Source: Rhodothermus sp.
GTDB lineage: Bacteria > Bacteroidota > Rhodothermia > Rhodothermales > Rhodothermaceae
Assembly (NCBI GenBank): GCA_030950375.1
Contig: JAUZRN010000010.1
Coordinates: 62,001-126,000, forward strand
Direction of reading: 5' to 3'
DNA: 64,000 bases
Shown here: piece by piece, positions 11,932 to 16,582 of the stretch
How the letters are laid out: each line of letters opens with the position of its first letter
Numbering within the stretch: position 1 is the first letter of the stretch
The notes under the pieces: generated by a model
Told to the model about the DNA's origin: nothing
What the model saw: the letters and a program-made list of their open reading frames with translations, nothing else
The model's database searches: none
Program-made: the position numbers and the translations under genes

Positions 11932-12345
11932 ATGCGACCTGCTTACAGCAGTGCTTTTCTGGAGTTGTTTGCCCGTCACTTCCGCTGGGAAGCCTGGGAA
12001 CAGCTGATTCGCCAGCGCGGCTGGACCATCGATCGTCCCTATCGAAGCCGCCATCCGCTGTTTGCAGAAGTCATCTACCCGATCGACTACGGCTATGTGA
12101 ACGGCACGCGCAGCAGCGACGGCGAACCCATCGATCTGTTTGTAGGCCACGGCGCTCACGGACTGGTAGGGGCCCTGCTGACCATCGACCGGCGCCGTGG
12201 CAAGCGAGAAGTCAAGCTGCTCTACAATTGTACCGCTGAAGAAGTCTATCTGGTCAACGGATTTATCAACTTCGACCGGCGGCTGCTGGAAGGCTTTCTG
12301 GTGCTACGCTACCCCATGTCGTCCCTGTGGAGCGACGTCGAATGA
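11932..12345 (+). CDS. Short, degenerate family I inorganic pyrophosphatase-like protein
   Basis: The 137-residue protein matches the core of soluble family I inorganic pyrophosphatases. IYPIDYGYVNGT corresponds to the conserved FYPxNYGYI segment, and DGEPIDLFVG to the metal-binding DGDPxDVLV signature, with the middle Asp replaced by Glu. A later LLTIDRRRGKREVKLL aligns with the loop carrying the D-D-K metal/phosphate ligands but keeps only part of them. The C-terminal Tyr-Lys pair and about 40 residues of the usual 175 are missing. It may hydrolyse PPi poorly or act on another phosphoester. The gene converges with speE and their 3' ends overlap by 37 bp. Family placement is from motif reading. 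Confidence 0.72.
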   Translation: MRPAYSSAFLELFARHFRWEAWEQLIRQRGWTIDRPYRSRHPLFAEVIYPIDYGYVNGTRSSDGEPIDLFVGHGAHGLVGALLTIDRRRGKREVKLLYNCTAEEVYLVNGFINFDRRLLEGFLVLRYPMSSLWSDVE

Positions 12346-13238
12346 GCCGGAGGCCCGCCATCAGCAAACAGGCGTCGCACAAAACTGGGTAACGCAAAGG
12401 CAGCCCGGTGCAGCTCGACGTTATAGTAGCGCAGCCGATCCGCAAACGAAGCCAGCCGACGAGCAGCCTGCTCCGGATCGAAATCTACTACCGGATGTAA
12501 CCGCTTGCTGGCCAGCGTGAACGACCAGAGTCCCATTGGATAGGTTGGAATATGGGCCAGGTACATGTGTACCTGAGCAAACATTCGCCCCAGCATTGCA
12601 TGGGCTGCCTGAATGGAGGCCTGAAAGGTATGGTCGAAAGGAGACTCACTCTGGGTCACCAATATCCCTTCATCCGTCAGAATACGGGCACAATCTCGAT
12701 AAAACGATTCCCCAAAGAGTCCCTCGGCGAAATTTACCGGATCGGTTGAGTCGACGATGATCAGATCATACCAGGCATCCGCAGCTCCCTGCACAAAAGC
12801 CACGCCATCAGCTACATGCAGACGAGCCCGCGGATCCTCGAAGGCAACGCTGAGCTCTGGAAAGCACGTACGCGCCGCCTCAATGACGACCTCGTCGATC
12901 TCTACCAGATCCACCTGTTCGATTTCCGCGTAGCGCAACACCTCACGCAACGTGCCCCCATCGCCGCCACCCACAATCAGTACGCGTCGTGGCCGAGGCA
13001 ACAGGCACAGCGCCGGGTGCGCGATCATTTCGTGATAAACAAATTCATCACGCTCGGTGAGCATGACCAGCCCATCGAGCGTAAGGACCCGTCCAAAGGC
13101 ATCGGTCTGCAACACCTGCACATGCTGATAGGCACTCTGACGGTTAAACAGGATGCGCTCGACTCCGAACGTGAGGCCGGTTCGCTCCTGCCAGAATTCC
13201 GTATACTGGAGCTGATGTTGCTTGGGTGCAGCCATCAT
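12309..13238 (-). CDS. speE: Spermidine (polyamine aminopropyl) synthase
   Basis: Transfers the aminopropyl group of decarboxylated AdoMet to a diamine such as putrescine in the cytosol. The N-terminal domain includes WQERTGLTFGVERIL. The Rossmann domain carries the dcAdoMet-binding VLIVGGGDGGTLREVLRY, followed by VDLVEIDEVVIEAA. The catalytic segment is DLIIVDSTDP, with the expected aspartates. Two adjacent ATGs at 13238 and 13235 are the likely starts; the upstream frame to 13307 looks non-coding. It lies about 94 bp downstream of speD on the same strand, giving the two-step polyamine operon speD-speE. Length (about 309) is slightly above typical because of the C-terminus, whose coding end overlaps the convergent pyrophosphatase-like gene. 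Confidence 0.95.
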   Translation of the reverse strand: MMAAPKQHQLQYTEFWQERTGLTFGVERILFNRQSAYQHVQVLQTDAFGRVLTLDGLVMLTERDEFVYHEMIAHPALCLLPRPRRVLIVGGGDGGTLREVLRYAEIEQVDLVEIDEVVIEAARTCFPELSVAFEDPRARLHVADGVAFVQGAADAWYDLIIVDSTDPVNFAEGLFGESFYRDCARILTDEGILVTQSESPFDHTFQASIQAAHAMLGRMFAQVHMYLAHIPTYPMGLWSFTLASKRLHPVVDFDPEQAARRLASFADRLRYYNVELHRAAFALPSFVRRLFADGGPPAHSTSLHRDDMG

Positions 13239-13331: not shown

Positions 13332-13727
13332 TCAGGCGGCGGCTGCCTCCTCAAGCACGGGCTTATGGGGCACCCGCTCCGGGAAAAGTCCCCGCTTAAG
13401 CTCCATGCTCGAGACACTCCGTGCCCTAAACCGCTCCTCCAGGTACTTCTGAATGACCCAGGGATCAATGGTCTCGCCGCATGTAAAAATGTCGACGGCC
13501 GCATAGCCATGCTCCGGCCAGGTATGGATGGCTACATGCGACTCAGCAATAACTACGACGCCACTGACGCCGTGGGGACTAAACGAGTGAAACGTGTCGG
13601 TGATGACGGTGGCACGGGACCGACGAGCGCCCTCAATCAAGATTTCCCGGATCAGGGCCTCGTTGTTGAGCACCTCTCGGTCGCAGTCATAGAACTCGAC
13701 CAAGATCTGCCTTCCGAGTGCTTCCAT
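13332..13727 (-). CDS. speD: S-adenosylmethionine decarboxylase proenzyme (class 1B)
   Basis: Pyruvoyl enzyme that makes decarboxylated AdoMet for polyamine synthesis. The self-cleavage site is visible as AESHVAIHTWPE: cleavage between Glu62 and Ser63 creates the pyruvoyl group. His68 and Cys83 (FTCG) occupy the positions of the known processing and catalytic residues, and the numbering equals that of the small Thermotoga-type enzyme. The 131 residues fit the bacterial class 1B form. The start is secured by AGGAGG five to seven bases upstream, one of the best Shine-Dalgarno sequences in the window. It leads speE. The long upstream region holds stable hairpins that could be a regulatory leader. 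Confidence 0.96.
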   Translation of the reverse strand: MEALGRQILVEFYDCDREVLNNEALIREILIEGARRSRATVITDTFHSFSPHGVSGVVVIAESHVAIHTWPEHGYAAVDIFTCGETIDPWVIQKYLEERFRARSVSSMELKRGLFPERVPHKPVLEEAAAA

Positions 13728-13834
13728 TGGCTACCCTCCTTTTGTTTTGCACCCCCCGTCTGCCACAAACGGGGAAACATTGTATGGTGAACAATTAATG
13801 CCCCCATTCGGAGGCACCCCATACAACCGCAGTC

Positions 13835-13916
13835 CTGGTGAGCGAAGGGTAGGAGGACGCCGGAAGACGTTAGGCCACGCTACAGACGCGTCCTCTTTCG
13901 CTTACAAACTCACCAG
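13835..13916. other. Nested long hairpin upstream of speD, possible structured leader RNA
   Basis: CTGGTGAG (13835-13842) pairs perfectly with CTCACCAG (13909-13916). Inside it, GAGGACGC (13853-13860) pairs perfectly with GCGTCCTC (13888-13895). A short GCGAA/TTCGC pairing between them is also possible. The fold lies about 108 bp upstream of the speD start and could be read on either strand. Which strand is transcribed is unknown. Confidence 0.45.
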
Positions 13917-13928
13917 CCGCTAGCGCAT

Positions 13929-13962
13929 CACGAGTCCATCCTGAATTACAGGATGTCTCGTG
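13929..13962. repeat. Thirteen-base-pair hairpin
   Basis: CACGAG (13929-13934) plus CATCCTG (13937-13943) pair with CAGGATG (13949-13955) plus CTCGTG (13957-13962), with only a TC/T bulge. On the plus strand it is followed by an A-run rather than a T-run, so it is not a standard terminator. Confidence 0.5.
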
Positions 13963-14650
13963 AAAAAACGCATTCAAAGAACGCGGGCATTGCGGTTCAG
14001 GATTGTACCTGGTGGCAGCAGGCCTTTTCCCGAAGGAGACTCCACAGTACCAAAACTAAGCAGCAGAACGATGTTTGTAAAACCCGGTTTTCTCCGACTT
14101 TATTTTTTCACAAATCCCCTCCTTACCGGGGGGCCAATGAACGAGCCCCCTGCCCCAGGGTTCCATTTAGAAAGCGCTTGTCTCCCTCACCAGGCCGGGC
14201 TTTTAATAGTTTTTTACGATGTGATCCGCCCTCTCAATCAGATCTGCTCGAAACTCTTCTGACAACTGAGCGTTGCTCGTTCCAAACTGAACATTGACGA
14301 GCCCAACGGCAGTCCTTATCTTTCATTCTGTGCAGGTTTAACCACCACGTGCTATGACGCATCGGCCAACCACACCGGCAGCGTGGTACTTTGGGCCTTT
14401 CCAGACCACGGCCATGCTACAGGTGGCGGGTCGATGTCGTTGTATGTGTTGATCGCCTTTCTGGCTGTTCCGGTCTACGAGCGCACGCCTACCATCTAAG
14501 TTGTAAGGGCGACAAGTAGCCCTACTGCATTCAGGCAGTGCTCCTGTGTCTCGCAGACCGGCGGTTGTGAGGGCTTGCTATCTCCTGCTGTCCCCGATCG
14601 TAACCAGTGTTTTTGTCCGCTTCCCTTGTTCACCAAAGCCTGGTCGCGCT

Positions 14651-16582
14651 ATGTCTGGCTCAAGAACTTTTGTCCGCTACGGCCGACGCACCCAGGAACT
14701 CACCTGGGAACTGGTACTCAAGCGCAACAGCATTGAGCGCCTCAAACAGGAGCGTCCTCCGCTGCGCGTTATCGAAGAGCTACCGGAGCTGATTGCACGC
14801 GGCTACGAAGCGATTCCTGAAGAAGATATTGTCCGCCTGTACTGGTACGGCATTGCGCACGACAAGCCCAAAGTGGGCACGTTCATGGTGCGCATCAAGG
14901 TACCGGGTGGCTTACTTCGACCAGATCAACTTCGGGCCATCGGTGAGATTGCCGGGCGTTACGGCCGCGATTACGGCGAGCTGACCACACGCCAGGGCAT
15001 TCAGCTCCACTGGGTAGCCATGGAAAAACTGCCCGAAGTACTGGAAGCCATCGCTCAGGCTGGACTGACCACCGTGGGTGCCGAAGGCGATACAGTACGG
15101 AATATTACCAGCTGCCCGGTCAACGGGATTAATCCAGACGAGTTGTTTGACGTCCGCCCGGTCATTGAAGCAGCCGCTCGCTTTTTCTGGGGGAACCCCG
15201 ACTATTCCAACCTGCCTCGTAAGCACAAATTCACGATCAGCAGCTGCCCCCATCAGTGCAACGCTCCGGAAATTCACGACATCGCACTCATCGGCGTCTT
15301 GAAGGACAGACGGCCGGGCTTTGCTGTCAGGGTAGGCGGTGGCCTGTCGGCCACCCCACGTCTGGCCCGTGATCTGGGGGTGTTTGTACCGGTAGACGAA
15401 GCCGTTGAAGTGCTGGCCGCCATTACCGATGTCTGGCAACACAACCTGCGCTACCGTCTGAGCCGCGCCAAGTCGCGCATCAAATTCCTGGTAGACGACT
15501 ACGGTCCAGAAGGCGTACGCGAAATGGTTGAGGCACGGTTGGGACGCCGACTGGAAGACTTTCGGGCACCTGATCCTGTACCAGGCGGCAATCATCTGGG
15601 CATTCATCGGCAGAAACAGGAAGGCTTCTACTATGCAGGTTTTCCAGTGCCCTCAGGGCGGGTAACCGGCACGCAGCTGCGCCAGATCGCCGACCTTCTG
15701 GAAGCTGTCGGTGGCGACATCCGCTTTACACGTGAGCAGAACTTCATTCTGGGCAACATTCCGGAAGACCGACTCGCCTGGGTACTCAATCAGATGCGGG
15801 CCGTGGGCTTCCCTATCGAACGTCACCGACTCTACGGCAGCTCGACAGCCTGCACCAGCCACCAGTTCTGCAACTACTCCGTTGCTGAAACCAAGGAAAA
15901 GCTCGACGAAATCATCGCTGAACTGGAAGCCCATTACGGTGAGGAGATCCAGCAGCTGACCATTTACATGGATGGCTGCCCACACGCCTGCGCTCATCAC
16001 TGGGTAGGCGACATCGGGTTGCAGGGCACGCGCACAGCCGGTCCCGATGGTACCAAAGTTGAAGCTTACGACGTGACACTACGGGGGGGGCTGGGCCGGC
16101 ATGCTGCCATCGGTCGTCCCATTCTGCGCCGCATCCCTTCTGCAGAAATCAGCCAGGCAATCGTCCGGCTGGTAGGCGCCTGGCTACAGGAGCGCCGCCG
16201 CCTGGGTGATCACTACACGTTTCAGGCCTTCTGCGAAGCCCACACGAATGAAGAGCTGCAGGCCATTGCACTGGGCGAAGTCTCGGCCAAAGAAGTAGAA
16301 GCAACCGAGGTGGTGCGCATTCGCATTCCTGGTCCCCTGCTGGAGTTGACCGAGGGCAGCGACCTCATTGAGGTCAAGGCCCCGACTGTGCGCATTGCGC
16401 TGGAGCAGGCCGGCCGCCGCTATCCCCACTTAAAAGCGACCGTGCTCACTCCTGACGGCCAGCTCAGCGAAGCCTTTAACCTCTATGTGAACGAAGAGGA
16501 CATCCAAGGCCTGCAGGGGCTCGACACCCCACTTAAGCCAGGTGACGAGCTGCTCATCCTCATGGCAATGTCCGGTGGTTAA
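14651..16582 (+). CDS. Siroheme sulfite/nitrite reductase fused to a ThiS/MoaD-like sulfur carrier
   Basis: A 643-residue assimilatory reductase that should reduce sulfite (less likely nitrite) by six electrons in the cytosol. The ferredoxin-type half-domains are followed by the siroheme/[4Fe-4S] ligands: CTSHQFC (Cys401, Cys407) and GCPHAC (Cys443, Cys447). An earlier TSCPVNG and SSCPHQCNAPE are the conserved anion-site segments. After about residue 550 there is an extra domain of about 90 residues with a beta-grasp pattern, ending LILMAMSGG. The C-terminal Gly-Gly is what ThiS and MoaD sulfur carriers use to carry thiocarboxylate. I chose the ATG at 14651; the open frame upstream to 14546 is not reductase-like. 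cysH starts 26 bp downstream. The pairing suggests that sulfide made here is loaded onto the fused carrier, which is inference. Confidence 0.9.
   Translation: MSGSRTFVRYGRRTQELTWELVLKRNSIERLKQERPPLRVIEELPELIARGYEAIPEEDIVRLYWYGIAHDKPKVGTFMVRIKVPGGLLRPDQLRAIGEIAGRYGRDYGELTTRQGIQLHWVAMEKLPEVLEAIAQAGLTTVGAEGDTVRNITSCPVNGINPDELFDVRPVIEAAARFFWGNPDYSNLPRKHKFTISSCPHQCNAPEIHDIALIGVLKDRRPGFAVRVGGGLSATPRLARDLGVFVPVDEAVEVLAAITDVWQHNLRYRLSRAKSRIKFLVDDYGPEGVREMVEARLGRRLEDFRAPDPVPGGNHLGIHRQKQEGFYYAGFPVPSGRVTGTQLRQIADLLEAVGGDIRFTREQNFILGNIPEDRLAWVLNQMRAVGFPIERHRLYGSSTACTSHQFCNYSVAETKEKLDEIIAELEAHYGEEIQQLTIYMDGCPHACAHHWVGDIGLQGTRTAGPDGTKVEAYDVTLRGGLGRHAAIGRPILRRIPSAEISQAIVRLVGAWLQERRRLGDHYTFQAFCEAHTNEELQAIALGEVSAKEVEATEVVRIRIPGPLLELTEGSDLIEVKAPTVRIALEQAGRRYPHLKATVLTPDGQLSEAFNLYVNEEDIQGLQGLDTPLKPGDELLILMAMSGG

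Follow-up and report, generated by a model that had tools for sequence, protein, structure and literature searches.

A covarying four-way-junction RNA in the speD-speE leader of Rhodothermus and its relatives, a candidate translational riboswitch

What is the function of the hairpins that separate speD from a divergent sulfur operon in Rhodothermus? The question was raised by a stretch of 64,000 nucleotides from a Rhodothermus sp. genome (the window), where a preliminary description, made by inspection of the sequence, had pointed to two nested stems and a neighbouring hairpin at 13835-13962. All of these helices are present. The outer stem pairs CTGGTGAG (13835-13842) with CTCACCAG (13909-13916) over the claimed 8 bp, extended to 9 bp in the minimum-energy fold, the inner stem pairs GAGGACGC (13888-13895) with GCGTCCTC (13853-13860) over 8 bp, and the neighbouring hairpin (13929-13962) has its 13 bp arranged as 6 and 7 bp flanking an internal loop. 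The stems are also placed as described, with speD (minus strand) on one side and the divergent sulfite-reductase and PAPS-reductase genes (plus strand) on the other. Since speD is read from the minus strand and the sulfur genes point away on the plus strand, the stems sit in the speD leader. The first gene downstream, speD itself, is an open reading frame for S-adenosylmethionine decarboxylase of 131 aa (13332-13727, minus; Pfam AdoMet_dc, E 5e-42). The second, speE, encodes an aminopropyltransferase of the spermidine synthase family (12309-13238, minus; Pfam Spermine_synth, E 5e-58; start codon chosen by us). On the other side, the nitrite/sulfite reductase frame (14654-16582, plus) carries at its end, residues 556-642 of 642, a domain of the ThiS family (Pfam E 2e-11), that is, a sulfur-carrier-like domain is fused to the C terminus of sulfite reductase.

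The hairpins themselves stand, and the extent given for them was too short. The structure continues to 13749, adding two arms and a closing stem, which the preliminary description had left out together with a complementarity to the ribosome-binding site. As defined by covariance model and covariation, the whole is a four-way junction of 182 nt on the minus strand (13749-13930), a candidate aptamer with arms P1-P4 located immediately 5´ of speD-speE and preceded by the hairpin at 13929-13962, here called P0. P1, the closing stem of 5 bp, is formed by an invariant 5´ strand GCGCU (13922-13926) and its partner GGUGC (13749-13753). P2 (13829-13920, helices 2-4) holds both stems of the original observation; this long arm contains a bulge and a conserved asymmetric internal loop and varies at its tip. 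P3 (13779-13827) comprises helices 5 and 6, and P4 (13754-13774) consists of helix 7 closed by a loop containing GUGGCA in Rhodothermus and in G015, a genome from another family of the order. All these elements lie on the minus strand. From the core end to the speD start codon there are 21 nt in the window, and 16-21 nt across ten genomes.

These ten genomes were collected by homology. A DNA search of 60 relatives returned eight matching genomes, seven of Rhodothermus (source included) and G015. When the order was searched with a covariance model built from seven of these eight sequences (R1; G004 excluded), 8 of 114 genomes had the RNA; the wider class yielded 10 of 244, and a sample of the phylum Bacteroidota 8 of 394. 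A model built from all ten sequences (R2) found the same ten of 244 and the same eight of 394. A further R2 match in the class search, G050 (20 bits, E 0.30), is taken as chance. Altogether, the RNA is present in three families: in 7/7 Rhodothermus genomes searched, in one genome of the second family, and in both genomes searched of the third, G128 and G176. By coordinates, it lies immediately upstream of speD on the same strand in all ten, and speE (60-100% identical to that of the window) comes next on the same strand in every case. The gene beyond the RNA on its far side is not the same in G015, G128 and G176.

Presence of the RNA coincides with a particular kind of SpeD. SpeD matches occur in 16 of the 114 genomes of the order; in the eight with the RNA, SpeD is 73-100% identical to that of the window, and the remaining eight, at 39-46% identity, gave zero RNA matches with R1. 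SpeD proteins encoded on contigs JALSJJ010000034.1 and WFPM01000129.1 are 98% identical to the window SpeD. Judged from these sequence comparisons, the RNA tracks a single speD-speE lineage. Over 81 loci (L010 and 80 listed speD matches), R1 detected only two Rhodothermus loci and G015, and a scan for conserved blocks upstream of the 80 listed speD loci matched two Rhodothermus loci, with L031, L056 and L078 also passing at a loose cut-off of 3-4 mismatches per block. R2, applied to 38 genomes taken from 38 of the 80 loci, gave one match, G548 (18 bits, E 0.90), again taken as chance. Among the 80 listed loci, the closest SpeD outside Rhodothermus belongs to Cloacimonadota (66-67%), where the RNA was found in 0 of 117, in a search run without a positive control. 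The large genome searches used strict filters and scored 6-23 candidates per genome, so that distant relatives of the RNA may be missed.

Next, we examined whether the predicted pairs are preserved. Folded singly, the cores (G004 excluded) adopt one and the same four-way junction and differ only in details. In alignment A4, whose ten distinct rows were fitted to the covariance model and are hence biased towards it, 98.8% of 596 cells are paired. Sixteen of 61 pairs (26 cells) have changed on both sides and still pair, compared with a shuffled mean of 4.7, and 0 of 500 shuffles did as well; the count of further pair types, 33 against a shuffled mean of 31.6 (141/500), is not above shuffles. When partners were slid by 1-3 columns as a control, 37-56% of cells paired and 0-5 pairs had changed on both sides. 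The doubly changed pairs are located in P2 (11 of 29), P3 (3 of 18) and P4 (2 of 9), with 0 of 5 in P1 across the ten rows. Covariation support is missing for P1, which is invariant, and for the nearly invariant base of P3. P0, compared within Rhodothermus (six distinct rows), has 72 of 73 cells paired and 3 of 13 pairs changed on both sides, and a hairpin stands at the same position in G015, G128 and G176. Compensatory changes, the lack of which the preliminary description had named as fatal to its idea, are evidently abundant both in the core and in P0. Conservation also goes beyond the stems, GCGCUAGCGGCUG being invariant in 10/10 genomes. On this comparative evidence we regard the fold as established by covariation, and its place and strand as shown too.

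Folding energies agree with a structured leader. The minus-strand leader (13728-13970) has a minimum free energy of -105.8 kcal/mol (z -5.43), the P0 region (13925-13962) reaches z -6.44 and the 182-nt core z -3.51; none of 200 shuffles was as good in any of the three cases. The plus strand of the core scores equally well (z -3.70, 0/200), so energy cannot choose the strand. Individual cores fold at -72 to -89 kcal/mol at 37 °C. In a comparison with 508 other 182-nt segments of the 64 kb, two matched or undercut the z of the core (16 shuffles each) and 11 its energy. On the opposing side, a 161-nt stretch of G015 with most of the core folds no better than its shuffles (z -0.19, 82/200). It is the G-U pairs that assign the RNA to the speD strand: by hand tally of the covariation table they occupy 92 of 596 pair cells, each of which would read as an A-C mismatch on the opposite strand.

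How could such a structure act on speD? The ribosome-binding region of speD, GGAGGGUAG (13731-13739, minus), is able to form 9 bp (one G-U) with the conserved internal-loop strand of P2, CUACCCUUC (13844-13852, minus), the last 4 nt of which also pair weakly inside P2 in the consensus. Each of these 9-mers occurs once on the minus strand of the window, both in the speD leader; GGAGGGUAG has its sole copy there on either strand, and one further CTACCCTTC lies on the plus strand. In 10/10 genomes GGAGGGUAG is retained. For each of the ten leaders, every uninterrupted helix of at least 6 bp between the ribosome-binding region and the rest was enumerated, and the longest one uses the homologous P2 loop strand in all ten. 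It measures 9 bp in nine leaders (CUACCCUUC with GGAGGGUAG) and 11 bp in G015 (CUGCCCUCCGA with UCGGAGGGUAG), where two additional pairs are formed. Shuffled leaders form a 9-bp helix in 58, 44 and 57 of 300 cases (window, G128 and G176, respectively) and the 11 bp of G015 in 7 of 300, so the argument is not one of length but of the common position of the helix and of the GUAG kept past the Shine-Dalgarno core.

With bulges permitted, the highest-scoring duplex falls on the P2 loop strand in three leaders (G015, G128, G176) and on the P3 5´ strand in two (G006, G001). In the other five (window, G005, G004, G002, G003) it falls on the adjoining P2 3´ strand, GGC-G-UCCUCCU (13851-13861, minus), which is then the better partner of the ribosome-binding region. 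Adding the uninterrupted helix with both of its strands open gives a structure 7.1-10.3 kcal/mol below the unknotted minimum in 10/10 leaders, before any pseudoknot penalty, and in G002, G004 and G015 the P2 3´ side is paired to the ribosome-binding region even in the unknotted minimum-energy fold, which breaks P1 and P2. On these duplexes and modelled folds, the P2 3´ side is the likely strand to hide the ribosome-binding region. A pseudoknot of this kind displays little independent covariation, and its geometry would be tight because only 5-9 nt connect P1 with the hiding helix.

Does the RNA belong to a known family? Rfam 15 (4227 families) yielded no match over it at E<=10, either in the window leader or in four loci covering the three families. 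A known RNA family is thereby ruled out at this threshold, known SAM riboswitch classes included, in accord with the original remark that none of their folds could be recognised by eye; tRNA and tmRNA were dismissed likewise, there being none in the 64-kb window. The SAM-I riboswitch (RF00162) deserves special attention, for it shares with our RNA the four-way junction and the association with SAM-metabolism genes. Its model gave no match by cmscan at E<=10 over the RNA in the same leader and four loci, and the same model does find two canonical SAM-I copies elsewhere in each of the seven Rhodothermus genomes. These are exemplified by L123 1501-1627 (G000:C21), which immediately precedes a reading frame that looks by eye like an O-acetylhomoserine sulfhydrylase, and by G000:C25:5699-5823. 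With two SAM-I riboswitches per genome, SAM sensing is already served by another RNA in Rhodothermus. Uptake of a ribosome-binding sequence by the sensor, as we propose it here, would resemble SAM-II, SAM-V and preQ1 pseudoknot riboswitches. The aptamers of these are far smaller and have other folds, which together with the Rfam scan sets them apart.

A close functional parallel is the published spermidine riboswitch, described by Salvail et al. 2023 (PMC10853860) as a transcription-terminating SAM-I variant with 13 examples from Gram-positive genera and from metagenomes. As far as that description goes, both RNAs are located in leaders of polyamine genes including speD and speE, both have four stems and for both product feedback is proposed; the present RNA differs in having no SAM-I match, in occurring in Rhodothermus and relatives, and in having no terminator-like site from core to gene in the window. 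Another orphan leader RNA of SAM-cycle genes, the SAM-Chlorobi motif (RF01724), precedes metK and ahcY in Chlorobi (PMC2864571); the genes are different and its model does not match the speD RNA. The potE and odc1 motifs are likewise candidate leader elements of polyamine genes and are set apart from a speD leader by their descriptions (PMC8632094), in which the former goes with potE and the latter, which incorporates a uORF, with ornithine decarboxylase. Motif surveys published in 2010, 2021 and 2024 (PMC2864571, PMC8632094, PMC11109978) mention neither speD nor Rhodothermus in their main texts, and our literature search, covering main texts apart from the 2017 survey (Weinberg et al.), found no published description of the speD RNA. 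On sequence grounds we propose it as a candidate riboswitch-like leader with an unlisted fold, which may nonetheless have appeared in print before.

We have shown so far that metabolic genes are preceded in 10/10 genomes by a covarying, conserved structure that lies in their 5´ leader and is encoded on the strand of the mRNA, the general pattern by which riboswitches are recognised. The earlier suggestion of a ligand- or polyamine-responsive leader is thus upheld as regards the leader RNA, by covariation, by position upstream of speD-speE in all ten genomes and by the absence of an Rfam match; responsiveness is the conjectural half of it. On balance, we favour the view that the speD-speE mRNA carries a structured leader RNA acting in cis, and that this leader is most likely a translational riboswitch with its own fold. 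Control at translation is the natural reading, since 16-21 nt separate the core from the ATG and a scan of four leaders (window, G015, G128, G176) detected no terminator-like site in that interval. Ligand binding, the identity of the ligand, the direction of control and the choice between pseudoknot and alternative fold are what we infer beyond this.

In the proposed mechanism, the four-way junction P1-P4, with its conserved junction and P2 internal-loop sequence, would be the sensor, and the 3´ side of P2, chiefly the loop strand CUACCCUUC (CUGCCCUCCGA in G015), would pair with GGAGGGUAG (UCGGAGGGUAG in G015). Ample spermidine, spermine, thermospermine or decarboxylated SAM would stabilise the form with the hidden ribosome-binding site, and less SpeD and SpeE would then be made. 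The hiding helix might be a pseudoknot built on the ligand-bound intact junction, in which case the ligand would turn expression off. Alternatively, it might belong to a fold that breaks P1 and P2 and is prevented by the ligand, which would then turn expression on. The feedback logic of a biosynthetic operon favours the former direction, and we infer that control is off. As candidate ligands we rank spermidine or spermine first, followed by decarboxylated SAM, SAM and finally MTA.

A bolder reading, which we hold only tentatively, is that riboswitches of the polyamine pathway evolved in nature a second time and independently. The RNA would then be a separate class, built on a four-way-junction aptamer of its own whose P2 arm directly captures the speD ribosome-binding site, and its ligand would be spermidine, spermine, thermospermine or decarboxylated SAM. 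In any case, the RNA is a concrete and testable riboswitch candidate with an unlisted fold. If it is selective for a polyamine, it would show how RNA distinguishes one small polycation from another, and if decarboxylated SAM binds, this would be a ligand for which, to our knowledge, no riboswitch is yet known. As described in PMC11107197, R. marinus has two aminopropyltransferases making spermidine, spermine and thermospermine, of which APT01 acts mainly as a spermidine synthase, with spermine as a further product, and APT02 is a spermine/thermospermine synthase.

Instead of a small molecule, a protein might bind the leader, with SpeD, SpeE or a dedicated regulator closing the ribosome-binding site. 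This explanation, which we consider unlikely but the most serious of the rivals, is consistent with the fixed association with speD-speE, and the conserved internal loops and junction would suit protein sites too. However, RNA sites of autoregulatory enzymes are usually short, and a large branched RNA with conserved joining strands would be more like ligand-binding leaders.

Sequences 5´ of the core bring transcription into consideration. By eye, a possible promoter for the leader is TAGTTTTG (14051-14058, minus), which reads TAGTTTT or TAATTTT in the seven Rhodothermus rows and resembles TAnnTTTG, which we take to be the consensus of the Bacteroidota -7 element. A scan for sigma-70 promoters found zero promoter-like sites on the speD strand in the window and zero in G015, and one each in G128 and G176, TTGCCC-17/18-TATACT (shuffled means 0.1 and 0.2), located at the same place on the speD strand about 85-88 nt 5´ of the core. 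Upstream of P0, the speD strand of the window contains a terminator-like 7-bp hairpin (13969-13985) with a U run (together 13963-13985, minus), near-invariant in seven Rhodothermus, and G176 has a terminator-like hairpin with a T run (L116 1424-1439, plus) shortly past its promoter-like site and likewise 5´ of P0. The active part of the leader might accordingly be a transcription attenuator formed by such a hairpin 5´ of P0, the four-way RNA being separate or a processing element. We regard this as improbable: a place 5´ of the core is unexpected for a riboswitch terminator, the window region has two terminator-like sites against a shuffled mean of 1.2, which is not above chance, and the G015 and G128 leaders have none. 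The hairpins of the window and G176 may possibly add a second regulatory layer to the translational control that we favour.

Still less probable is an RNA thermometer or a passive damping of translation, in which heat would melt the leader and free the ribosome-binding site. R. marinus is indeed a thermophile (PMC11107197), and pairing between the leader and the ribosome-binding region is feasible; yet such a device needs neither strictly conserved unpaired and joining sequence nor a junction as stable as -72 to -89 kcal/mol. Finally, it is extremely doubtful that we deal with a DNA-level or chance feature, be it a set of inverted repeats that serve a regulator acting on the divergent genes or a GC-rich sequence that happens to fold well, for although the region lies between divergent genes and the core beats its shuffles on the plus strand too (z -3.70), the 16 pairs changed on both sides and the 92/596 G-U cells point to selection on the speD-strand RNA, and the far-side gene differs in G015, G128 and G176.

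One more complementarity was detected in the leader. The P4 loop GUGGCAG (13760-13766, minus) is complementary to CUGCCAC further upstream (14012-14018, minus) in the six Rhodothermus sequences compared, over 7 bp in five of them and 6 bp in G001, and G015 has 6 bp at a similar distance. It is absent in G128 and G176, and because of this absence in the third family we omitted it from the model of the riboswitch candidate. As read from the sequences, the pairing may be an extra long-range contact of P4, or it may be due to chance.
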